A stretch of DNA of 64,000 bases from Terriglobus albidus (GTDB lineage Bacteria > Acidobacteriota > Terriglobia > Terriglobales > Acidobacteriaceae), in assembly GCF_025685425.1 (NCBI RefSeq), contig NZ_JAGTAS010000032.1, positions 62,001-126,000 of the forward strand. The letters run 5' to 3'. Position 1 is the first letter of the stretch, and every line of letters starts with the position of its first letter. The notes under the pieces are model-generated. The model was not told the origin of the DNA and made no database searches. It was given only the letters and a program-made list of their open reading frames with translations. Of this stretch, positions 4,931 through 57,830 are shown piece after piece. Position numbers and translations under genes: made by a program.

Positions 4931-4967
4931 ATTCACAGCGCCCGAAGAGAGTTGATCTCGAATAGTA

Positions 4968-5427
4968 TTGGGTGGGAGCAGCTGGCTTCAACCCGCTGAC
5001 ACGGTGCGCCCGATCATCCTCGGGCCGGCCACAGATCGGCCCTACGGAGAATCAAGCGCTGAAGGCGCGTTCTATACCAGCCTGGGGCAACGCCCCAGGG
5101 ACGGAGATAGGGAGACGGGAAGAGGGCTGAAGGCCCGATCTATAATCCCAATCGTCACAAACGAAACGATTCGTGAAAACGTTGTATACCTATCGAAACG
5201 ATACGTTCGGATTGAAGGCTCCTATATAGGGCGGGCCTTCAGCCCTTTAACATCTTGTGGGTACCAAAACCCTGGGGCGTTGCCCCAGGCTGGTATAGGT
5301 CGCGCCTTCAGCGCTCAACACATCTTTCTTCCTCAATAAAGAATGGGCTTTAAAGCCCACGCCTTACCCCAGCCAGCAAGGCTGGCTGAAGCCCATGGCT
5401 CCCACCCATTCGAGCTACGCTCGAATA
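4968..5427. repeat. Family A nested-palindrome repeat, copy A1
   Basis: A gene-free interval between convergent genes, built as nested inverted repeats. Outer arms are GTGGGAGC at 4972 and GCTCCCAC near 5397. The next arms, 45 nt each at 5056-5100 and 5271-5315, differ at two positions. Inside these, a GGGCTGAAGGCCCG arm near 5127 pairs with CGGGCCTTCAGCCC near 5233. The dyad centre (about 5185) falls on a GTATAC. The right end closes with a hairpin-like CATTCGAGCTACGCTCGAA. Open frames inside it are products of the repeat. Confidence 0.85.
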
Positions 5428-16570: not shown

Positions 16571-16683
16571 CAGAGCATCTTCCCTGTAGGGGCAGGAAAT
16601 CCCGCATCAATCAGCGTTTTCCGAAAAGGAAAACGCCGCGGCACGTGCCTTTTTGGGATACCCAGCAACAGGGAAATGCTCTA
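16571..16683 (-). mobile_element. Family B MITE-like element, copy B1
   Basis: About 113 bp bounded by degenerate terminal inverted repeats (CAGAGCATCTTCCCTGT on the left; ACAGGGAAATGCTCTA on the right), with an internal hairpin around GGCGTTTTCC/GGAAAACGC. The end at 16681-16683 supplies the TAG stop codon of the ASPIC gene. No coding capacity. Confidence 0.75.
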
Positions 16684-18411
16684 TTTCGCGGGTTCTTCGA
16701 TGCGAAGCATCTGATCCACGCCCACATGTTGCAGGTGTTGCCGGATGCCGCTGGGCCACTGGATCTCTATGTCCGCTTCCGTACTTTCGCCCAGTCCGAA
16801 ATGCACCCGCTTGTCGCTGCTGGAGAGATACGAGCCCGCCGTAGAGACCGTCGCATATTGCGATTGGCCGTGAGATATCACGTGTACATTGGCTCCGATC
16901 GCATCACGATTGGAGGTATGTCCAACCAGCAGTAGCGTCAGCCAGTGATTGCTTGACTCCGTCCGATTCAAGATAAGATGCGCCGGTCCATCGTTGGTAG
17001 AGACCACTGCATCGAGACGGCCGTCATTGTCGAAGTCGCCGAGCGCCAGTCCTCGTCCCACCCACGGCTCGCGAAAGACGGCTCCAGCTTCAGACGAAAC
17101 ATCAACGAATTTCCCTTCGCCAACATTGCGGGCAAGCAGCATCGGCTCACGGTAGTGGAGCTGCGGGAAGTTCAGTTCCACATTGTCCAGGTCATGCCCC
17201 TGGGCCACAATCAGATCCTTACGGCCATCATTGTCGTAATCAAAGAAGCGAATACCCCAGCCGGAGCGCAGCAACGTCATCTTCGCGATGCCGGAGCTGT
17301 AGGTGTCATAGTTGAAAGAGCCATCGCCGTTGTTGCGATAGAGCGCATACTTCTGCATGGCGAGGTTGGTGATGACCAGGTCCGGAAGGCCGTCATTGTC
17401 ATAGTCTTCGAAGTCGATCCCCATGCCGGCATACGTCTTTCCTTCACTGTCTACGGCGATCTCTGCGGTGAGACCGATCTCGCTGAACTTGTCTCCGTCA
17501 TTTCTGTAGAGGAACTCGAACATGGAGTCGTTCGCGATTGCGAGATCAACCTTGCCGTCGCGGTTGAAGTCCGCAAGAGCAATCCCGAGGCCCTTCGCAG
17601 GCTTGTCGAGGCCGAAGGCGACAGCCTTCTCTGTAAACGTCCCATCCCCGTTATTGCGATACACCATGGGGCGAATCGCCGGGAAGATATCAGGATGGCA
17701 GTAGGCGCGGTATCCCTCGCGATGCTCCCCACACCATACGTCCTCAAAATCCCAATGCACGTAGCGCAGTACGACGAGGTCAAGCTTGCCGTCGTTGTCG
17801 AGGTCCACCCACGCCGCTGCGGTGTACCAGTTATCCCCTTGAGCAGCCGCGCCACCGGTACCGGATTTCGCCGTCACGTCCGTAAAGGTGCCGTCACCAT
17901 CGTTGCGGTAAAGGCGATTGCCTCCATACGCCGTCACATAGAGATCTTCAAAGCCATCATTGTCGAAGTCTCCGACGGCAACGCCCATGCCATAGCCAAC
18001 ACCTTTCAAGCCGGCGCGCTCGGTTACGTCTTCAAAGCTGCCATCGATTTTCTGGTGATACAGACGATTCCAGTCTTCCGGGCCCTTCTTTTGCGGCATG
18101 GTCCCCTTCGGTGCCGGGTTCGGCACGGACGCACCGTTCGCGAAAAAGATATCGAGACGGCCATCGTTGTCGTAGTCAAAGGCTGCGACACCGGAGCCTA
18201 TCGTCTCCAGAAGGTACTTGTGAGAAGTGTGGTAAGCGCGAGCCTGGAAGCCGGGCTTGAGACGGCCTGAGGCATCGATAAAGTTCGCATGTTCTGCCGG
18301 CGTCTTCGCTTTGGAGGCGGCTCCCGAAGTTTGTCCTGCAAGATTCTTCGTTCCAAAGCTCAGAGAGAGGAGCAGTCCCAAAACAGCGAAATTCGGCGCA
18401 AGCACCCGCAT
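16681..18411 (-). CDS. Secreted FG-GAP/VCBS and ASPIC-UnbV (CRTAC1-family) protein
   Basis: From the start at 18411 (AAGGG about 10 bases upstream; 18444 is an alternative) the protein has a signal peptide (APNFAVLGLLLSLSFGTKNLAGQ) and seven calcium-binding FG-GAP blades, each with a D-x-D-x-D-G-x-x-D loop such as DYDNDGRLDIFF, DFDNDGFEDLYV, DLDNDGKLDLVV, DFNRDGKVDLAI and DFDNDGRLDAVV. The C-terminus is an ASPIC/UnbV domain (GANVHVISHGQSQYATVSTAGSYLSSSDKRVHFGLG and IEIQWPSG). An integrin-like propeller at the cell surface or in the periplasm is expected; the function is not established. Its TAG stop is the first three bases of a MITE-like repeat. It lies upstream of the receptor on the same strand, but the receptor has its own promoter region. 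Confidence 0.9.
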   Translation of the reverse strand: MRVLAPNFAVLGLLLSLSFGTKNLAGQTSGAASKAKTPAEHANFIDASGRLKPGFQARAYHTSHKYLLETIGSGVAAFDYDNDGRLDIFFANGASVPNPAPKGTMPQKKGPEDWNRLYHQKIDGSFEDVTERAGLKGVGYGMGVAVGDFDNDGFEDLYVTAYGGNRLYRNDGDGTFTDVTAKSGTGGAAAQGDNWYTAAAWVDLDNDGKLDLVVLRYVHWDFEDVWCGEHREGYRAYCHPDIFPAIRPMVYRNNGDGTFTEKAVAFGLDKPAKGLGIALADFNRDGKVDLAIANDSMFEFLYRNDGDKFSEIGLTAEIAVDSEGKTYAGMGIDFEDYDNDGLPDLVITNLAMQKYALYRNNGDGSFNYDTYSSGIAKMTLLRSGWGIRFFDYDNDGRKDLIVAQGHDLDNVELNFPQLHYREPMLLARNVGEGKFVDVSSEAGAVFREPWVGRGLALGDFDNDGRLDAVVSTNDGPAHLILNRTESSNHWLTLLLVGHTSNRDAIGANVHVISHGQSQYATVSTAGSYLSSSDKRVHFGLGESTEADIEIQWPSGIRQHLQHVGVDQMLRIEEPAK

Positions 18412-18575
18412 AGACGATCGGCCCTTATCGATAGAGATTTTCATTGAGGCGGGGAACTTTCCGCACCTCAAGCAGAGTCGTTGCTCTGAAGGTGAATCTG
18501 CGCAGCTATCGTAGCAGGGTGCGGTCGGAGGGAAATAGTGATGTGTATTTTCGAAAGTCACGGCGTATCAAAAAC

Positions 18576-18753
18576 GGGTGGGAGCAGCGGCTTCAGCCCG
18601 CTGAATTTACGCTTATTGAATGATGGGCTTCAGCCCTGGGCTTTGTCGTTTATTGAACCAACGGCCCAGGGCTAAAAGCCCTCTCTTTCTAAACTCCGTA
18701 TTTATAGCGTGGGCTGAAGCCCACGGCTCCCACCGTATTCGAGCTTCGCTCAA
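18576..18753. repeat. Family A palindromic repeat, copy A2
   Basis: Gene-free. GTGGGAGC (18577 region) and GCTCCCAC (near 18727) form outer arms around CGGCTTCAGCCCG, GGGCTTCAGCCCTGGGC, GCCCAGGGCTAAAAGCCC and GTGGGCTGAAGCCCAC, ending in ATTCGAGCTTCGCTCAAG. It ends 1-2 nt from the stop codon of the regulator gene at 18755. Confidence 0.8.
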
Positions 18754-25469: not shown

Positions 25470-25757
25470 CCGGCTCCTCTCTTCACTCAGCTACTTTCAT
25501 CGTAGTCGGGCTCCGTCCTGAGATGGACGGTCCGCCATCGCTTCGCGCGCGCGGCATCAATTGCGGCAATATCGATCTCCGCATTGTCATCATTGCGCTC
25601 ATTGCGCGCTTCGCTGCGGCGCGATCCGGTCCGTTGTCTTCGCAGGAAAACGGCGCAAACAGCCAAAGCATCCCAGTGTATGGGCCAGACTGATTCTCGG
25701 TCTCATCGAAAGTACCGTCGCATTCTTTCCTAGCTGTGACGACGCCAATATCGGCCC
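25470..25757. other. Intergenic region without a supported gene
   Basis: A short frame exists here on the minus strand but has neither family resemblance nor a ribosome binding site. A piece near 25650-25667 (AAAACGGCGCAAAC) matches the inverse of the interior of the element at 57452-57605, so this may be a decayed repeat. Confidence 0.4.
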
Positions 25758-26744: not shown

Positions 26745-28325
26745 GTGGAAAAGACTCCCAAAGGTGGCGATTCCCCCGCGCCCGCGAACTGGACGAACCC
26801 TGAGCGGTGGCTTGCCGCAATTGTCGACTCGTCCGATGCAGCGATTATGGGTGAATCTCTGGACGGCACCCTTACAAGCTGGAATCGTGCCGCAACAGAG
26901 ATGTTTGGATATTCGGCGGACGAGGCGATCGGTAAGCCGATCCTCTTTCTTGCATGGCCCGACAAAGAAGACAGGATGCATGAACTGCTCGGCATCGTCC
27001 GGAACGGTGAGCGTATCGATGGATTCGAGACAGCGCGGAAACATAAGGACGGTTCACAGGTCTTTGTCTCTCTGAGTATGTTTCCCGTTGAAGATGCTGA
27101 CGGGAAGATTGTAGGCATTGCCGAGATTGCCAGGAACATTACCGAGCGCAGATTGGCCGAGGAGCAGATTGCGCGCTCCCAGGCTGAGGTGCTCGCCGAA
27201 CGCAAGTTCAGGGAAATGATCGAGGAGGCGCCTGACGCGATCCTCGAAGTGAATCAAGCTGGCCACATCGTTATTGCCAATAAGACATCAGAGACTCTTT
27301 TTGGGTACACACGCGAGGAATTGCTCGGACAGCCGGTCGACATTCTTGTGCCGATGTCGTATCGGAGCAATCACCCCGACAATATCGCAAGGTTTGTACG
27401 GAGCGGCAGAACCCGCCCAATGGGACAAGGACTGGACCTGAACGCACGGCGCAAGGATGGGTCCGAGTTTCCCGTCGAGATCAGCCTGAGCCCAATCCGC
27501 AGCACGCAGGAGGTCCTGATTGTTGTTGTCATCCGCGATGTGTCGGAACGGCGCAAGTCAGAACAACAACTGCGGGCCCTGCAAGAGGGCTACTTTAATG
27601 AGTTAGTGGCACGGCAGCATGAGGCAGAGCGCCTGAATCGCCTGAAGAGCGAGTTCATGGCAAGCGTAAGCCACGAGCTGCGGACTCCGCTGCATACAAT
27701 CATCGGGTTTACCGACCTTCTGAAAGAAGAGAGCAACGGAGCCCTGAATACGAAACAGCTCCGGTTCGTAGAGCATATCCAGAGGGATTCGGAGCATCTG
27801 CTGGCGCTGATCAACGATGTGCTGGATCTGAGCCGGATCGAATCCGGTGGACTCTCCCTTCATACTGCAGAGATCGACATTCCCAACCTGCTGCAGCAGA
27901 CGGTGGAATCTGTACGCGGACAGGCAACGGAGAAAGGCATCGTTCTTCGTATCGAGAGCGAGGACGACTTATACGCCTCTGCCGACCTGACGCGGGTACG
28001 CCAGGTTCTCCTCAACCTTTTGAGCAACGCCATTAAGTTCACTCCATCCGGCGGCTCGGTGACGGTCAAAGCGACCATCGAAGAGGATTGGATCAGTGTC
28101 GCAGTCCAGGATACCGGAATCGGCATCGCGCCTGAGGAGCAGGAGCTGATCTTCGACAAGTTCTATCAGGCGGGCGTTACCACGGGCGGCATGAAAGAGG
28201 GCACTGGGCTGGGACTGACCATCAGCCGTCAGATCGTCATGATGCACGGTGGGCGCCTGGAGGTGACAAGCGCCAAAGGTGCGGGAAGCGAGTTTACCTT
28301 CACCTTACCGCGTTCGGCTCTGTGA
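26745..28325 (+). CDS. PAS-PAS sensor histidine kinase
   Basis: 526 residues, GTG start. Two PAS domains (about residues 18-140 and 150-270; VDSSDAAIMGESLDGTLTSWN and IEEAPDAILEVNQAGHIVIAN) with their PAC ends (IAEIARNITERR, VVVIRDVSERR), a coiled linker, a HisKA domain with H-box VSHELRTPLHTIIGF, and an HATPase with N-box VLLNLLSNAIKFTPSG, G1 DTGIGI and G2 GTGLGLTISR. There are no membrane segments, so it is cytoplasmic and senses an internal signal, possibly redox or a small ligand in PAS. The receiver gene follows after 82 nt. Its promoter region contains a CRP-type palindrome shared with the divergent USP gene. Confidence 0.95.
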   Translation: MEKTPKGGDSPAPANWTNPERWLAAIVDSSDAAIMGESLDGTLTSWNRAATEMFGYSADEAIGKPILFLAWPDKEDRMHELLGIVRNGERIDGFETARKHKDGSQVFVSLSMFPVEDADGKIVGIAEIARNITERRLAEEQIARSQAEVLAERKFREMIEEAPDAILEVNQAGHIVIANKTSETLFGYTREELLGQPVDILVPMSYRSNHPDNIARFVRSGRTRPMGQGLDLNARRKDGSEFPVEISLSPIRSTQEVLIVVVIRDVSERRKSEQQLRALQEGYFNELVARQHEAERLNRLKSEFMASVSHELRTPLHTIIGFTDLLKEESNGALNTKQLRFVEHIQRDSEHLLALINDVLDLSRIESGGLSLHTAEIDIPNLLQQTVESVRGQATEKGIVLRIESEDDLYASADLTRVRQVLLNLLSNAIKFTPSGGSVTVKATIEEDWISVAVQDTGIGIAPEEQELIFDKFYQAGVTTGGMKEGTGLGLTISRQIVMMHGGRLEVTSAKGAGSEFTFTLPRSAL

Positions 28326-28407
28326 TTCGGGTCACGGCTGCCGTTTCCCAGGCATCCTATTCTTATCGTTGATCCGGGCCTGCCAGGGTTCGATTGGGGT
28401 GAACCGG

Positions 28408-28764
28408 TTGAAATGTCTGATCGCTGACGATGCTGACGGAGCAAGAGAGCTTCTTCGATGTATCCTCGAAGGCCGAGGAGTAGAAGTCATCGAAGCCCGT
28501 GACGGGCAGGAGGCGATTGATCTGGCTCTTGAGCATATTCCAAGCTTCGTGATTCTCGACATCGGCATGCCGAAGATCGATGGCTACGGTGTGGTTTCGG
28601 CGTTGCGACGAATACAGCACTTTGACAGAACGCCCATTCTTGCACTCACCGCCGGGATTGGAGACTTGGCTCCCGACGATCTCGCAAAAGCCGGCTTTAC
28701 CGGATGGCTTTCCAAACCGATCCGCCCGGCTGTTTTGCGGGAAGCACTGGAGCAATTCTCCTAG
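28408..28764 (+). CDS. Single-domain response regulator (CheY-like receiver)
   Basis: About 118 residues if translation starts at TTG 28408, preceded by GGGGTG at six bases; GTG 28399 is the alternative. It is one receiver domain: acidic pair in CLIADDADGAREL, phospho-acceptor Asp in FVILDIGMPKIDGYG, Thr in ILALTAGIG and Lys in GWLSKPIRP. No output domain is present, so it probably relays phosphate from the adjacent kinase or acts by protein contact. Its TAG stop is formed by the first bases of MITE-like element B2, and its last codons resemble another repeat end (see findings). Confidence 0.88.
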   Translation: MKCLIADDADGARELLRCILEGRGVEVIEARDGQEAIDLALEHIPSFVILDIGMPKIDGYGVVSALRRIQHFDRTPILALTAGIGDLAPDDLAKAGFTGWLSKPIRPAVLREALEQFS

Positions 28765-28972
28765 AGCATTTATCTGTTGCCAGGGCGCATCGACAAATTC
28801 GGTTGATTTGACACAGCATGACCGAAACTGGTGGGAGCAGCGGGGTCCCCATCCATTCGAGCTTCGCTCGAAGATCCACCCAGAGTTTGGGCTATCTGGG
28901 AATTTGTCGATACACCCTGGATATCCCGGAAGAGGAGTGCAGCGGCGTTTTCATTGCGGAAAACGCGATCTA
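28762..28972 (+). mobile_element. Family B element B2, interrupted by a second palindromic element
   Basis: Family B starts at 28762 (TAGAGCATTTATCTGTTGC) and resumes after 28920 (ATATCCCGGAAGAGGAG, GGCGTTTTCATTGCGGAAAACGC), but its right end is lost at about 28972. The interruption at 28780-28920 has its own inverted ends (CCAGGGCGCATCGACAAATT against its near complement at 28901-28920) and contains a family A fragment (GTGGGAGC and CATTCGAGCTTCGCTCGAA, 28830-28881). The whole interval exactly fills the gap between two convergent stop codons. Confidence 0.75.
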
Positions 28973-31264: not shown

Positions 31265-31378
31265 TAGAGCATTTCCCTGTTGCTGGGTATCCCGGAAGAA
31301 GCGTGCAGCGGCGTTTTCATTGCGGAAAACGCCCATTGATGCGGATCCTCTGGGTACACCTGCAGGGAAAATGATCTA
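31265..31378 (+). mobile_element. Family B MITE-like element, copy B3
   Basis: 114 bp with ends TAGAGCATTTCCCTGT (31265) and GCAGGGAAAATGATCTA (to 31378), internal hairpin GGCGTTTTC/GAAAACGCC. It fills the gap between the convergent crp/fnr-like and zinc-ribbon genes, ending 4 nt from the latter's stop. Confidence 0.85.
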
Positions 31379-31805: not shown

Positions 31806-31866
31806 TGTCTCCTCCTCTCTCTCCCTGAGAATGAGAGCCTTACACCACATGCGGGCAGCGGCAGTG

Positions 31867-32012
31867 ATGGAGATCACAGATCTCGATGGAGATCACAGAC
31901 CTCGATGGAGGTCACAGACCTCGATGGAGGTCACAGACCTCGATGGAGATCACAGATCTCAATGGAGATCACAGATCTCGATGGAGGTCACAGATCTCGA
32001 TGGAGGTCACCG
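31867..32012. repeat. Tandem array of eight 19-bp palindromic units
   Basis: Unit ATGGAGATCACAGATCTCG, with starts at 31867, 31886, 31905, 31924, 31943, 31962, 31981 and 32000, exactly 19 bp apart; the last unit is partial. Each unit carries an inverted repeat with an ACA centre: GAGATC-ACA-GATCTC or GAGGTC-ACA-GACCTC. Units 1, 3, 4, 5 and 6 are fully paired and units 2 and 7 have one mismatch. The array begins 62 bp before the zinc-ribbon start and stops 5 nt after the end of the USP gene. There are no unique spacers, so it is not CRISPR. Confidence 0.95.
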
Positions 32013-32016
32013 TCCT

Positions 32017-33065: not shown

Positions 33066-33503
33066 ATTCGAGAGAAGCTCGAACCGGTGGGAGCCGTGGG
33101 CTTTTAGCCTGGCACGATAAGCGCTGAAGGCGCGTTCTATGCCAGCCTGGGGCAACGCCCCAGGTTCGGATAGTTAAGAGGTATGAGGGCTGAAGGCGCG
33201 CTCCATAACTCTCATGGCAAGTAGTTGAAGAATTCCATCTGGAAAGAGAAGGCCCAAGCTCTTTGATACCGTAAACCGTGGACCAAAATCCAGGCTCCCC
33301 CGTTCTCGCTTTAGTGCGAATCCACCCTGGCTGCAGAATTATAGAGTGGACCTTCAGTCCTTTTATCCTTCAATGGCCAGGAGGGGCGTTGCCCCAGGCT
33401 GGTATAGAGCGCGCCTTCAGCGCTTTTATCAGCGGGTTCAAGCCCGCTGACAACCCCAACCAGCAAGCTGGCTGGGGATCACGCTCCTCCCACCCGGTTT
33501 AGT
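33066..33503. repeat. Family A nested-palindrome repeat, copy A3
   Basis: Gene-free interval of about 440 bp with the same plan as A1. An ATTCGAGAGAAGCTCGAA hairpin and GTGGGAGC stand at the left. The inner arm GCGCTGAAGGCGCG...CCAGCCTGGGGC at 33121-33164 pairs with 33383-33423. The right end has AGCGGGTTCAAGCCCGCT, CCAGCAAGCTGGCTGG and CTCCCACCC. It lies between the USP promoter and the 3' end of the formamidase-family gene. Confidence 0.85.
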
Positions 33504-45874: not shown

Positions 45875-45990
45875 TAGAGCATTTTCCCTGTAGGTATAGC
45901 GCAGGGCGTCTGCATCTATCGGCGTTTTCCGCAATGAAAACGCCGCTGTACTCCTCTTCCGGGATACCCAGTAACAGGGAAAATGCTCTA
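45875..45990 (-). mobile_element. Family B MITE-like element, copy B4 (complete)
   Basis: 116 bp with perfect 17-bp terminal inverted repeats, TAGAGCATTTTCCCTGT at 45875 and its exact complement ending at 45990, and an internal 9-bp hairpin. It is non-coding. The end at 45988-45990 forms the TAG stop of the receptor gene on the minus strand. Confidence 0.9.
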
Positions 45991-48900
45991 GAAAGAAATA
46001 CGCAGTACAAGCTGCACCTGGCGAGACGGATAGACGCTGGTGCTGCCGGTGAAGCTGCCGAAGCTGCTGCTATAGGTCGGTGCTCCTGAGGTAGCATTCA
46101 CCGAGCCAACGCTGGCAGAGGGGCTGATGTAGTTGGTTGCATTGAAGACGTTGAAGGCCTCAATCCGGAACTCGGCGTTGTACCGTTCGTTAGGCAGCGT
46201 AAACCGCTTATGCGCCGAAAGATCGAACTGTCCGAATGCCGGGCCGCGCAGGATATTGCGGCCTGCATTGCCGAAGAGCTGGGTGCCGGCAGGAATCGAT
46301 ACACCCGGAGGCGGTGTCGTTCCTGAGCCTGCGATCAGGTAGCCGCTCAGCGAACTCGCCGTCTTGACCAGCGTCTTGCCATAGACGGCCGACGGAGATC
46401 CGGTCAGGTTGGGCCGGATGGCATATGACTGACTTGTGGTTGAGACCACCTGGTTGCTGCTCGGCGAGTAGGTCAGGTTGATAGGCACGCCGCTGGTCAC
46501 CACGTTGATGCCGGTCAACTGCCAGCCGCCCAGGATCTGCTGCTGCCATGCGGGAGCCGACGAGCCGAAGCGGCGTCCCTTGCCGAAGGGAAGATCGACA
46601 ATCGCCGAGGTGGTGTTGTTCAGCGGCTGGTTGTAGCCCGAAGGTCCACGATCACCCGCGGGGTTCGCCTTGTTGATGAGAGCACTGTCGCCGTTCTGCG
46701 TCTCCAGATCAGCCGAGTTCAGATCGATGCCGCGCGACCAGGTGAACGAGTTGATGAGGAAGACACCGCCGCGGAATCGCCGCTGCAGCTTGGTTTGCAG
46801 CGAGTGATAGATCAGAGATCCCGCGTTGCTCTCCGTCAGAATGTCGGAGAAGTTGGCGATCGGTCTGCGGTTAAGTACAGAGGTCGTGCACTGGCCCTGC
46901 GCTGCCGCCGGAACTTCACTCGGCAGACACAGGCGCGCCTGGTTGAAGTCCAGAAGCGATGGAATATGCACCGTGTGATTGCCGACGTATGCCACCTCAA
47001 GTGTGGTGTCATACGGCAGCTCCTGCTGGACTGACAGATGGAAGGCCTGCACATATGCCGGCTTGAAGTCCTTCGGCGTATATCGCGTCTGCGCCTTGGT
47101 GGTGGAGAAGTTCACCGGTCCGGCAAAGTTGGTCTGATAGCCGTCCTGCGTTCTGCGGAAACAGGTCGTCGGATCCTGGGTCAGCGAGGTGCACAGTCCC
47201 TGGCTCGGTGTCTGATTCGAAGGCAGCGTCGCCGCGTAGTTGTTCGGACCGTTGTAGGCAAGCAGGCCCTCTCCGCCGAAGCGGAAGAGATAGGCATAGC
47301 TGATGCCATAGCCGCCGCGGATGACCGTCTTCGGCATCGTCTGGTAGGCAAAGCCAACACGTGGACCGAAGTTCTTATAGTTGGGATCGACCAGGCCACG
47401 ATCGGCCAGCGAGTTTCCGCCGACATAGTGAAGGTTATAGACGTGTCCCGGCACAGTACTGTTCACATCGGTTCCACTGCCGGCAGCCAGCAGACGGTTA
47501 TTCACCGGGTCGAAGTTGTAGAGCTTATTGTTCTCTTCATAGTTCGGCGTCATGAACTCGTAGCGGAGACCGAGATTCACCGTAAGCGATGGCAGCGGCT
47601 TCCAATCATCCTGTAGATAGCCCATATGCCAGTAGCGCAGATAGTTCACCTCATTGGGAGCGTTCAACTGGTAGTTGCTGCGCGCGCCGAAAAGAAAGTC
47701 CGTAAGGTTCGCTGCCTGCGCCGTGGTTGTGCTGCCGGCAGAGCTGAACGAGCCGGCATAGGTATCCGAACCGAACTTCGGATGAAAGTCGGAGATCGCC
47801 TGCGACATCCAGCCGAACTCATAGCCGACCTTCAGACTGTGACGTCCACGAATCCAGGTGTAGTTGACCTTGGGATTCGCTTGCGTCGGATTATTGAACT
47901 GCGGATTGGTTCCCTGCTCACCGAACTGCGTGAAGCCGGAGACGGACTGAGGGCTCAGGCCGCCCGTATAAGCGGGATCCTGCGGGACGTTAGGGACGCC
48001 TGCTAGAAGGTTAGGAGCACCGAGGAAGATGGGGAACTTGCCGCTCTCGGTCCAGGTCTCGCCAAAGCGCATCTCCAGGATCGAGGTCGGCGTCAGTGTC
48101 CAGTTATACCCGGCAGCGAGCTGCCGCGTTCTGGCATAGAGGGTTCCGTTGCTGTTACCGCCCGCCGCGCCAGGGAACGGTGGCGGCTGGAAGTAGGTGA
48201 CGGCGCGCTGGCTGTAGCGGAAGAAGCCATTCTGGCGATCGTTGCGGACGAAATCGATACGGCCGTCGCCCTTGTCGTCGACCGTGGGCGCGGCGGGGAG
48301 ATATTGATAGTTCGCCGCAGTCAGCGCGGCGCCGGGGATATTGGGCCGCGGCAGCAGACTGAAGACCTTCAGCGCGACAGGATTGATATTCGGATCGCCC
48401 AGCGGAACCCGGCCATTGCTGTAAACCACGCCGGTATAAGGATTCTTGATCGGGATCGGCGTGCCCGTGGCTGTACCGTCTGTTGTAAAGATGCCGTTCA
48501 GCTCGGCATCGGTGGGCAGAGTTGCGGTGGTGAGAGAGTGCGAGACGGCGCGCAGACCTTCATAGTCCACGAAGAAGAAGAGCTTGTCACGCAGGACGGG
48601 ACCACCGAAGGTGCCGCCAAACTGGTTCTGCACCAGCGTGGGCTTGATGCCGGTTCCGTAGAAGGGTCCGAAGGCATTCAGTAATGTGTTGCGGAAGTAC
48701 TCATACGCTCCGCCATGGAAGGCATTGGTTCCGCTGCGGGTGGTGGCGTTGACGATCGCGCCGCCGGCGCGGCCATACTCTGCCGAATAGTTATCGGTCT
48801 GTACCTTGAACTCCTGCAGCGAGTCCGGCGATGGAATCACGGCCTGGTTCGAATATCCCTGGTTGGCTTCCTGGTAGGCGTTGTTGTCGATGCCGTCGAG

Positions 48901-49515
48901 GACGAAGTTGTTGTCCATCGAGGTAAGACCGTTGACGTTGTAGGAAGCATCGCGAGGCGGGTTGGAAGCCACGGTGGCAATCAACGAGCGGCGAACGCCC
49001 GGCACCAGTTGCGCCAGGTCAGCATACGAGCGGCCATTCAATGGCAGGGTCACCGCTTCGGTTCCTTGGATCGTCTGTCCGCGATCGCTGGTCTCTGTCT
49101 CCAACTGCTCTGCGACGCCCGTCACCGTCACGCTGTCGCCGGTCTGGCCGACGCTGAGGGTGAGGTCGACACGCTGACGTGCTCCGACGTTTACGCGAAA
49201 GGTATCCGTCTTCAGATTCTGGAAGCCGGATGAGGTCACCGTCACCACATAGTCGCCGGGCTGCACGCTGTCGAACTCATAGCTCCCGCTCGCGTCTGTC
49301 TGCCGGGTGCTCTTGACGCCCTTGGCGACATTGGTCAGCTCGACCGATGCGCCGTTGATCGTCGCTCCCGAAGGATCCTTGATCGTGCCCAGCACCGCGC
49401 CCGAATCGAACTGGGCATAGACCTTGTCTCCGGCCGCCAGCATTACGAGCAGGGCCAGGCGAAGGGCAACCCAAGACCATCGGGCAGATTGTTTCTTCTT
49501 GATGTTCGGCGTCAT
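45988..49515 (-). CDS. TonB-dependent receptor, Oar-like
   Basis: 1,175 residues from ATG 49515 (GGAG nine bases upstream; the frame is open to 49746 without a signal sequence there). Signal peptide (VALRLALLVMLAAGDKVYAQ), carboxypeptidase-regulatory-like domain (GAVLGTIKDPSGATINGASV, DASGSYEFDSVQPGDYVVTVTSSGF), plug (TEAVTLPLNGRSYADLAQLVPGV, NNFVLDGIDNNAYQE) and barrel ending RQVQLVLRISF. The stop codon TAG comes from MITE-like element B4. It diverges from the winged-helix-type regulator at 49778 with a 262-bp gap, mirroring the 18755/20341 pair. Confidence 0.93.
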   Translation of the reverse strand: MTPNIKKKQSARWSWVALRLALLVMLAAGDKVYAQFDSGAVLGTIKDPSGATINGASVELTNVAKGVKSTRQTDASGSYEFDSVQPGDYVVTVTSSGFQNLKTDTFRVNVGARQRVDLTLSVGQTGDSVTVTGVAEQLETETSDRGQTIQGTEAVTLPLNGRSYADLAQLVPGVRRSLIATVASNPPRDASYNVNGLTSMDNNFVLDGIDNNAYQEANQGYSNQAVIPSPDSLQEFKVQTDNYSAEYGRAGGAIVNATTRSGTNAFHGGAYEYFRNTLLNAFGPFYGTGIKPTLVQNQFGGTFGGPVLRDKLFFFVDYEGLRAVSHSLTTATLPTDAELNGIFTTDGTATGTPIPIKNPYTGVVYSNGRVPLGDPNINPVALKVFSLLPRPNIPGAALTAANYQYLPAAPTVDDKGDGRIDFVRNDRQNGFFRYSQRAVTYFQPPPFPGAAGGNSNGTLYARTRQLAAGYNWTLTPTSILEMRFGETWTESGKFPIFLGAPNLLAGVPNVPQDPAYTGGLSPQSVSGFTQFGEQGTNPQFNNPTQANPKVNYTWIRGRHSLKVGYEFGWMSQAISDFHPKFGSDTYAGSFSSAGSTTTAQAANLTDFLFGARSNYQLNAPNEVNYLRYWHMGYLQDDWKPLPSLTVNLGLRYEFMTPNYEENNKLYNFDPVNNRLLAAGSGTDVNSTVPGHVYNLHYVGGNSLADRGLVDPNYKNFGPRVGFAYQTMPKTVIRGGYGISYAYLFRFGGEGLLAYNGPNNYAATLPSNQTPSQGLCTSLTQDPTTCFRRTQDGYQTNFAGPVNFSTTKAQTRYTPKDFKPAYVQAFHLSVQQELPYDTTLEVAYVGNHTVHIPSLLDFNQARLCLPSEVPAAAQGQCTTSVLNRRPIANFSDILTESNAGSLIYHSLQTKLQRRFRGGVFLINSFTWSRGIDLNSADLETQNGDSALINKANPAGDRGPSGYNQPLNNTTSAIVDLPFGKGRRFGSSAPAWQQQILGGWQLTGINVVTSGVPINLTYSPSSNQVVSTTSQSYAIRPNLTGSPSAVYGKTLVKTASSLSGYLIAGSGTTPPPGVSIPAGTQLFGNAGRNILRGPAFGQFDLSAHKRFTLPNERYNAEFRIEAFNVFNATNYISPSASVGSVNATSGAPTYSSSFGSFTGSTSVYPSRQVQLVLRISF

Positions 49516-49715
49516 TGCATTCGCTCCATAAGTAAGTGGTTCCAACGGAAAGCCCGCGCATGTTTGTCTCTGGTCAGCGTCAGGAAAGGGGGCCGTTGGG
49601 GAGAGGAATAGCAGCGAGGCCTTCAGCGAAGAAGCGAATTCACGGCGACAACTTCGATACACGCGTGAACTGCTGTGGAATAAATGATTTACCGAACCGT
49701 CATGTATCCGATACA

Positions 49716-49751
49716 GTGAATGCCGTGTGAATGGTTCATGGCGCATTCACA
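49716..49751. promoter_or_regulatory. GTGAATG repeats in divergent receptor/regulator promoter
   Basis: GTGAATG at 49716 and 49727 are direct repeats 11 bp apart. The second is also the left arm of a perfect 8-bp inverted repeat, TGTGAATG (49726-49733) with CATTCACA (49744-49751). It lies just upstream of the regulator start and may be its binding site. Confidence 0.5.
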
Positions 49752-51169: not shown

Positions 51170-51352
51170 ATTCGAGCGAAGCTCGAACCGGGTGGGAGCC
51201 GTGGGCTTCAGCCCACGGTCTATCGGTTCAATATAGAAATGGGCTTTTAAGCCCTGGGCCTTTTCTGTGCGTCAGGGAAAAAGCCCAGGGCTAAAGCCCA
51301 TTTTCCTTTATGCCTTTTACCAGCGGGCTGAAGCCCGCTGCTCCCACCCATT
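51170..51352. repeat. Family A palindromic repeat, copy A4
   Basis: Begins with the hairpin TTCGAGCGAAGCTCGAA, then GTGGGAGC, GTGGGCTTCAGCCCAC, GGGCTTTTAAGCCC, AGCCCAGGGCTAAAGCCC, AGCGGGCTGAAGCCCGCT and CTCCCACCC. It lies 50 nt after the regulator stop and fills most of the gap to the next gene. Confidence 0.85.
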
Positions 51353-51509
51353 ACACCCAAAACTCTCTTGCATGGGGCATTTCGAATTCGTCGATGCGTC
51401 CGAAAAGAACCCACAACTTCAGCCTGCCTTAATGGACACGACGCAGACTGGTGAAGCTGTGCGGAGCTTCCGCGCGTAGCAATATCCAATTCAAAACGAG
51501 GAGGGTCCC

Positions 51510-52543: not shown

Positions 52544-52583
52544 GGGCGGGAGCCGCGGGCTGAAGCCCGCTGCTCCCACCCAA
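52544..52583. repeat. Family A hairpin between convergent genes, copy A5
   Basis: GGGCGGGAGCCGCGGGCTGA and AGCCCGCTGCTCCCACCC form a compact stem-loop 12 nt after one stop and 12 nt before the other. It may work as a two-way RNA end. Confidence 0.7.
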
Positions 52584-52594
52584 TTGCAGACCAC

Positions 52595-57451: not shown

Positions 57452-57605
57452 TGGAGCATTCTCCTAAAGGAGTAGAGCGGAGTGTCGCGGTCCCGGGCGA
57501 ACGAAGTTCGCTGGGGTGCCGTTCTGGCAGTTTGCGCCGTTTTCCTTCGAAGAAAACGGCATTCACAGATTTATCCAACGCTACAGTATTAGGAGAATTG
57601 CTCTA
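57452..57605. mobile_element. Family C palindromic element, MITE-like
   Basis: 154 bp with terminal inverted repeats: TGGAGCATTCTCCTAA on the left and TTAGGAGAATTGCTCTA on the right. Inside are CGAACGAAGTTCG and CCGTTTTCCTTCGAAGAAAACGG hairpins. It is non-coding, next to the start of the giant protein gene. Its outer end shares TAGAGCA with family B. Confidence 0.65.
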
Positions 57606-57713: not shown

Positions 57714-57830
57714 CAAAGCCTTTTTCCTGTAAGTGTCGCGTAGGGTTTCCGCATGGATGGGCGTTTTCCGCAATGAAAACGCCGCGGCACTCCTCTTCCG
57801 GGATACCCAGCAACAGGAAAAATGCTCTAG
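57714..57830 (-). mobile_element. Family B MITE-like element, copy B5
   Basis: About 117 bp. The right end ACAGGAAAAATGCTCTAG is well kept; the left end (CAAAGCCTTTTTCCTGT) is degenerate. Internal hairpin GGCGTTTTCCGC/GAAAACGCC. It lies 40 bp upstream of the CHAT-protein start, the only copy located before a gene start. Confidence 0.8.

Follow-up and report, generated by a model that had tools for sequence, protein, structure and literature searches.

Elements of the type described here, their duplication of a TA target and their tolerance on the 3' side of genes are already known for bacterial MITEs, as far as the portions of the reports cited below extend. MITEPlu5 of Photorhabdus luminescens is present in 467 complete copies of 123 bp and, like the family analysed here, combines inverted ends and a TA target duplication with high copy number (PMC6267812). 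MITEPlu5 resembles the ends of resident IS630-type transposons, whereas the IS630-type genes of the genome studied here have other ends, and the portion of its account used here does not mention overlap with the stop codons of neighbouring genes (PMC6267812). RUP of Streptococcus pneumoniae (107 bp, ~110 copies) inserts at TA and is thought to be moved by IS630-Spn1 (PMC2229807, PMC3049150), and the location of pneumococcal repeats downstream of genes has been read as tolerance (PMC3049150). In contrast to RUP, which is over-represented between convergent genes and has another sequence, the present family shows no such excess, with 23 copies between convergent genes vs 27.7 expected (PMC2229807, PMC3049150). 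ERIC/RU-1 of enterobacteria is 127 bp long, has terminal TA, a TA duplication and a stem-loop, and is sometimes located at gene 3' ends; an RU-1 insertion has been described in which the normal stop was apparently removed and the protein lengthened, whereas the stop is rebuilt in the present family (PMC2759123). REP elements, palindromes tagged with GTAG or CGTC, share with it the character of abundant palindromic repeats, but they measure 20-40 bp, carry the tag at one end and lack the paired ends and target duplication that this family has (PMC3733652). A search of the open-access full-text literature did not find stops rebuilt by TA insertion described, and the term 'stop codon' is absent from the main text of a 2024 MITE review. 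The elements reported here are a new family with a quantified stop-site habit of simple explanation.

The window, that is the whole 64-kb stretch of DNA that was analysed, lies in a genome of 6.10 Mb and 58 contigs (G000). A sequence-only reading of it had listed five copies of a short non-coding element, and all five are present; matches to the element's end with up to 3 mismatches numbered 5 in the window vs 0.08 expected. B4 (45875-45990, plus strand) is a full-length copy of subfamily A with TA on both sides and the element proper at 45877-45988. B1 (16571-16683, plus strand), B2 (28762-28972, minus strand), B3 (31265-31378, minus strand, between called genes) and B5 (57714-57829, plus strand, left end decayed) also belong to subfamily A. 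The TAGs at 16681-16683, 28762-28764 and 45988-45990 each terminate an open reading frame, as had been proposed. The right-end TAG of B1, read on the minus strand, is the stop of an adjoining gene (16681-18561, minus strand) with FG-GAP repeats and an ASPIC/UnbV domain, whose best named protein match comes from an Acidobacteriaceae metagenome bin (94% identity), which makes the genome probably that of an Acidobacteriaceae. B2 has its right end at 28762 and a damaged left end, and its TAG closes a gene with a response-regulator receiver domain (28279-28764, plus strand). The gene ending in B4 (45988-49746, minus strand) encodes a TonB-dependent outer-membrane beta-barrel protein with a carboxypeptidase regulatory-like domain. 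B2 is composite, its A copy containing a second, nested repeat (approximately 28782-28919); the ends of this second repeat, GG(T/C)G(T/C)ATCGACAAATTC, resemble those (TAGGGTGTATCGACA) of an IS5-like element on contig C561 of the sister genome G012 (locus L203). The window also holds a subfamily-B element (57452-57605, plus strand, outer limits approximate) with GAGCA..TTCTCCTAAAGG ends and a subfamily-B fragment (25631-25674, minus strand).

Subfamily A is ~112 bp long and ends in 15-bp terminal inverted repeats, with the layout 5'-GAGCATTTTCCCTGT ... ACAGGGAAAATGCTC-3' and the base G at the beginning of the element at both ends. The 17-bp end described in the sequence-only reading consists of these 15 bp plus a 2-bp duplicated target (TA). 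In B4 the left end TAGAGCATTTTCCCTGT begins at 45875, the right end, which closes at 45990, is its exact reverse complement, and the terminal arms 45875-45891 and 45974-45990 pair at 17/17 positions, in agreement with that reading. The interior is asymmetric: between the left part and the right part (GGGATACCCAGCAACAGGG) stands the middle hairpin (GGCGTTTTC-loop-GAAAACGCC); at ~112 bp the coding capacity does not exceed 37 codons, too short for a transposase. B4 is predicted to fold very stably (-55.5 and -56.9 kcal/mol for the two strands, z ~ -7.4), and an Rfam scan of the elements returned no family at the gathering score. Subfamily B has ends near GAGCA(A/G)TTCTCCTAAAGG and a middle hairpin formed by GCCGTTTTC and GAAAACGGC. 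The middle stem is conserved across subfamily A and also kept in a genome of another genus (G309), and by eye the hairpin of subfamily B is restored via paired changes. The terminal arms of 104 copies covary, with 33 paired changes vs 8.9 in shuffled sequence; 22 of the 33 fall at two positions, which may be inherited subfamily marks. The conserved hairpin structure may be of use in transposition or in RNA. Inspection by eye found no T-run after the hairpins in the consensus, and since both orientations are moreover used equally at stops, a plain one-way terminator role is unlikely.

With up to 2 mismatches the 17-base end was found 291 times in forward and 293 times in reverse orientation in G000 (584 matches), and a reversed control pattern gave 0 matches at the same threshold. 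A sample of 1.65 Mb, comprising contigs C28 and C18 as a whole, 100 kb of C19 and the window, was read closely. Profile searches of this sample yielded 137 copies including fragments (120 A and 17 B), 119 of them near full length, and only 1 of the 137 lay inside a called gene, genes having been called by a simple hexamer-scoring script and not by a standard gene finder. Mean pairwise identity among 104 near full-length A copies was 0.81, and nearest-neighbour identity had a median of 0.905 and a maximum of 0.974. The family was thus active in the past, and this 104-copy sample gives no sign of a current burst. Sister genomes G002, G012 and G015 contain the family, and G017, which is 78-83% identical in the best aligned pieces, gave 0 end matches at up to 1 mismatch. 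Within the taxonomic family, 46 of 398 genomes, belonging to 15 of 79 genera, carried the end at that threshold; it was also found in 11 of 396 genomes sampled over the phylum, and a search of a plasmid collection gave no match. Twenty regions from other genomes comprised 14 with one short end pair (83-143 bp), five with an unpaired end and one IS5-like locus of G012. Among 30 three-kb loci of end matches in G000, 25 had a short pair and 5 had no long pair. Three head-to-tail A pairs, L047 (C28:325597-325601), L054 (C28:471583-471588) and L046 (C28:302010-302014), were joined by an ATGC-GA(Y or none)-TAGAGC-like junction and not by ATGC-TC-TA-GAGC; this odd junction is perhaps a footprint, a joined-ends intermediate or an escape from a perfect palindrome.

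We measured the distance from each complete end to the stop of the gene reading into the element. In 45 of the 137 copies (~33%) the terminal TAG is itself the in-frame stop, so that the excess of stop overlap extends beyond the window. By element end, these cases at offset 0 amount to 23 of 129 for the left and 22 of 128 for the right (257 ends in all), and the other offsets listed between -30 and +30 held 0-3 each per end type, which bears out the earlier judgement that chance is an unlikely cause. When only genes of at least 600 bp with a high coding score were considered, 17 left and 17 right ends remained at offset 0. The sequence-only reading had further held that the same element end is always involved; this describes the three cases in the window, but does not hold in the genome sample, with its near-equal use of left and right ends. 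In 400 kb of G002, 8 of 15 copies overlapped a stop. One copy (L037, C28:133289-133403) is common to G000 and G002 (205390-205505, joined L121-L140); in G000 nine bases (TAGTTGCGA) are doubled, and the stop lies 9 bp before the element and not within it as in G002.

Comparison with stretches of the genomes of relatives provided an element-free site for 23 of the 137 copies and a filled site only for 1. Judged by eye, a single TA took the place of the TA-element-TA of G000 at 14 of these 23 sites, TA was missing from the relative's junction at 4 (elements 22, 23, 28 and 42), and 5 (17, 21, 35, 43 and 44) were not clean; the flank of element 77 is itself a repeat and its orthology is doubtful. 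For B3 the empty site showed a single TA in G012 and G015 and TG in G002. TA was present on both sides of 60 of 113 copies, and an identical non-TA pair on both sides of 5 copies vs 1.3 expected (29 of 5000 shuffles reached 5). The flanking two bases are accordingly recognised as duplicated target and not as element sequence. At C28:570988 a B copy lies in the terminal TA of an A copy. Element 23 is flanked by CA on both sides, and CA is also found at its empty site. A three-base duplication was rejected, since the TA on the left is preceded by a variable base and the TA on the right by a C that belongs to the element. TA was missing on one or both sides in 53 of 113 copies, mostly as TG/TA and CA/TA, which we read as decay, a reading that is unproven. 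Absence in sister species could partly represent loss there rather than gain in G000. Altogether, short non-coding elements with hundreds of copies (584 end matches in 6.1 Mb), terminal inverted repeats (17/17 in B4), a duplicated TA with matching empty sites (14 of 23 with a single TA, as well as B3 and B4) and presence/absence differences between sister species show that the assignment to a MITE-like mobile family was correct.

At stop-site copies the relatives revealed what the element had replaced. In 13 of 14 readable cases the empty relative has TAA or TAG at that codon; on C28 alone all 8 stop-site copies with an empty relative have a TA stop there (6 TAA and 2 TAG), element 30 vs G017 being excluded for poor alignment (19 of 36 bases). 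The gene ending in B4 reads ...TTC TA|GAGC in the window and ...TTC TAA CTG in G002, G012 and G015, and the gene ending in B1 reads ...CCC GCG AAA TA|GAGC in the window and ...CCC GCG AAA TAG CGC in L206. Conversely, for the G002 stop-site copies 6, 10 and 12 the corresponding codon of G000 is TAG. Only these 3 of the 8 stop copies of G002 were counted: copies 3 and 11 were poorly aligned, the G000 site is filled for copy 7 and holds a remnant for copy 8, and for copy 2 the matching G000 codon is TAG but the flanks were not matched on both sides. B2 is the exception, in that three relatives have TGC followed by TGA, with the stop one codon later; its stop came from the insertion or from another change. 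The sequence-only reading had counted an older stop sharing no bases with the insertion as evidence against itself: the older stop was there in 13 of 14 cases, but two bases (TA) are shared. Its suggestion that insertions replace a stop is right only insofar as TAA becomes TAG, while the old TA is retained.

These observations very probably reflect non-autonomous MITEs that insert at and duplicate TA, for which stop codons are safe landing sites, and whose placement is explained by insertion plus survival. A codon that starts with TA is a stop if its third base is G or A and encodes tyrosine if it is C or T. On this reading, a transposase-dependent element of ~112 bp enters a TA, which is thereby duplicated; where this is the TA of an old TAA or TAG stop, the element's own first base G rebuilds TAG. 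Because G stands at both ends and TA plus G gives TAG, it follows from the genetic code that the protein remains unchanged in either orientation, and because insertion there leaves TAG, stops would be safe landing sites. We infer that insertion plus survival, and not a stop-seeking mechanism, places a third of the surviving copies at stops. Against this reading stand the relatives of B2, which lack a TA stop at the insertion codon, the 4 empty sites without TA at the junction and the 5 that were not clean, and the copies without TA on one or both sides.

Whether stops are also actively favoured was judged from placement, with the counts representing surviving copies and not insertions. The target preference is approximately CG-N-TA-R, the CG-N-TA preference of the left flank not being mirrored on the right flank in the 1.65-Mb sample, where 12 copies had TG on the left and TA on the right and 6 the reverse. 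A strict CTAG target was rejected, with CTAG at 15 of 69 intact sites, and TAG as a strict target is likewise unsupported, so that of the CTAG/TAG target proposed earlier only the TA-containing part stood. Stop TAs make up 9.9% of available TAs, or 13.4% when weighted by preference (13.8% with a larger matrix), and 33% of copies were located there: 45 of 137 vs a weighted expectation of 18.9 (P = 1e-8), the weights being rough, with 56 ends on the left and 60 on the right, all at non-stop sites, as their basis. That excess would be expected if stop codons attracted the element, or if a 3'-end hairpin useful in mRNA protection, termination or operon spacing retained copies, an explanation that we consider unlikely. 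It is favoured by the excess at stops between co-directional genes (37 vs 12.0 expected; 37 and 38 in two analyses whose classes differ slightly), by the entry of elements into operon interiors (the next gene lay within 20 bp at 11 of 38 occupied co-directional stops vs 141 of 547 unoccupied TA stops), and by the very stable fold of B4 with a middle hairpin that is conserved in A and rebuilt in B. The co-directional enrichment, noticed post hoc, occurs without enrichment at convergent stops (8 vs 6.9), which is at odds with plain tolerance, but the same lack of convergent enrichment also speaks against attraction or a useful hairpin. TAs within 30 bp after a stop were enriched as well (26 vs 15.4), and the difference between stop and near-3' enrichment was not significant (P = 0.10), so that no stop-specific targeting was demonstrated; neither end is preferred at stops (23 vs 22), unlike what a strand-specific role would entail, and no T-run seen by eye follows the consensus hairpins. 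Farther away, 21 copies lay 31-100 bp after a stop (23.3 expected), 29 lay beyond 100 bp (49.0 expected), and 16 lay between divergent genes (30.4 expected, P = 0.001), whereas 71 of 137 were at or within 30 bp of a stop vs 34.3 expected (P = 2e-11), a significant gradient. Target preference alone is insufficient for the stop overlap, and a general 3'-end enrichment must be added to it. We read this 3'-end gradient as tolerance, with insertions purged from promoters and genes and kept at gene ends.

Two further explanations concern the nature of the stop and of the element. That the element provides new stops, which shorten or lengthen the adjoining proteins, agrees with B2, whose gene is one codon shorter than in three relatives, where it ends in TGA, but the TAA or TAG at the same codon of the empty relative in 13 of 14 cases contradicts it as a general rule; it is possible for single copies and very improbable as the overall account. 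Mobilisation of a REP/BIME-type repeat by a RAYT (TnpA-REP) transposase would suit a palindromic sequence that lies mostly outside genes in hundreds of copies, but is extremely unlikely here: the element measures ~112 bp, has inverted ends of 15 bp on both sides and duplicates 2 bp of target, whereas REP repeats are palindromes of 20-40 bp tagged at one end, and other repeats of the window look more REP-like. Among these, a palindromic repeat around GGTGGGAGC-AGCGGGCTGAAGCCCGC, found at 4965-4998, 5381-5408, 18703-18751, 51174-51222, 51321-51354 and 52553-52584, looks like a better REP/RAYT candidate than the ~112-bp element. The Rfam family Acido-Lenti-1 (RF01687), listed as an sRNA, matched at 5055-5099, 5271-5315 and 33120-33164; because all three belong to a dispersed palindromic repeat whose copies form inverted pairs, this 'sRNA' family may be a mobile repeat. 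A tandem array with a 19-bp unit (GATGGAGATCACAGATCTC) occupies 31847-32016.

A TA duplication and 15-bp inverted ends point to an IS630/Tc1-like or IS5-like DDE enzyme. The mobiliser of the family is most likely a DDE transposase of the TA-targeting kind, IS630/Tc1-mariner-like or IS5-like, that acts in trans. The sequence-only reading had proposed a search for a transposase using these ends, and none turned up in the 1.65-Mb sample of G000, in 0.8 Mb from relatives, in the 20 regions from other genomes or in four Pfam searches of G000, G002, G012 and G015. Ends paired at a distance of 500-5000 bp were sought in the 1.65 Mb of G000 and in 0.8 Mb of G002 and G017. Three frames between such ends, read by eye, were not transposase-like, and of eleven analysed with Pfam ten belong to ordinary housekeeping or regulatory families and one, without a family, reads as a membrane protein; the frames at C18:119644-120102 and C28:901886-903610 lay outside the Pfam scan. 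The TA duplication is as expected of an IS630/Tc1-mariner-derived MITE. DDE_3 gave 5 matches (2 in G000, one of them partial, 2 in G002 and 1 in G015), and the ends differ at all 5 loci, a G000 locus being flanked by other inverted repeats (TTTATTGATTCCTGC); none of the resident IS630-type elements at these loci shares the ends of the family. DDE_Tnp_1 (PF01609) gave 19 matches, with loci in G002 and G012 and 0 in G000. Three of the 19 have an end match within 1.5 kb, namely two whole MITEs and one lone end that is not common to the other copies of that gene. DUF4096 (PF13340) gave 1 match, in G012, and 0 in G000, and the G012 element ends in GGTTGCTAGGGTGTATCGACA. Among resident IS5-like (IS427-like) elements likewise none at these loci shares the ends of the family, and neither PF01609 nor PF13340 has a match in G000. 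A Pfam search for ISAzo13 gave 0 matches, but its control was also without a match anywhere. The helper transposase may have been lost from G000.

The stop-compatible ends, in which TA is followed by G or A, might even be an adaptation that makes the stops of a gene-dense genome a safe harbour for TA-targeting elements, though we hold this to be rather doubtful. If so, such elements would rewrite TAA to TAG genome-wide, and many genes, also within operons, would have a strong hairpin right after their stop, which would affect mRNA 3' ends or the terminating ribosome. A simple, checkable rule is suggested for TA-duplicating transposons, namely that the first base of the end sets the outcome of insertion into a stop codon: under this rule G or A would make the insertion silent, and C or T would open the reading frame. 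With hundreds of copies and empty sites in sister species, the family offers a large natural data set on how insertion preference and selection jointly place mobile DNA. Annotators should moreover expect many of the TAG stops in such genomes to consist in part of transposon sequence.
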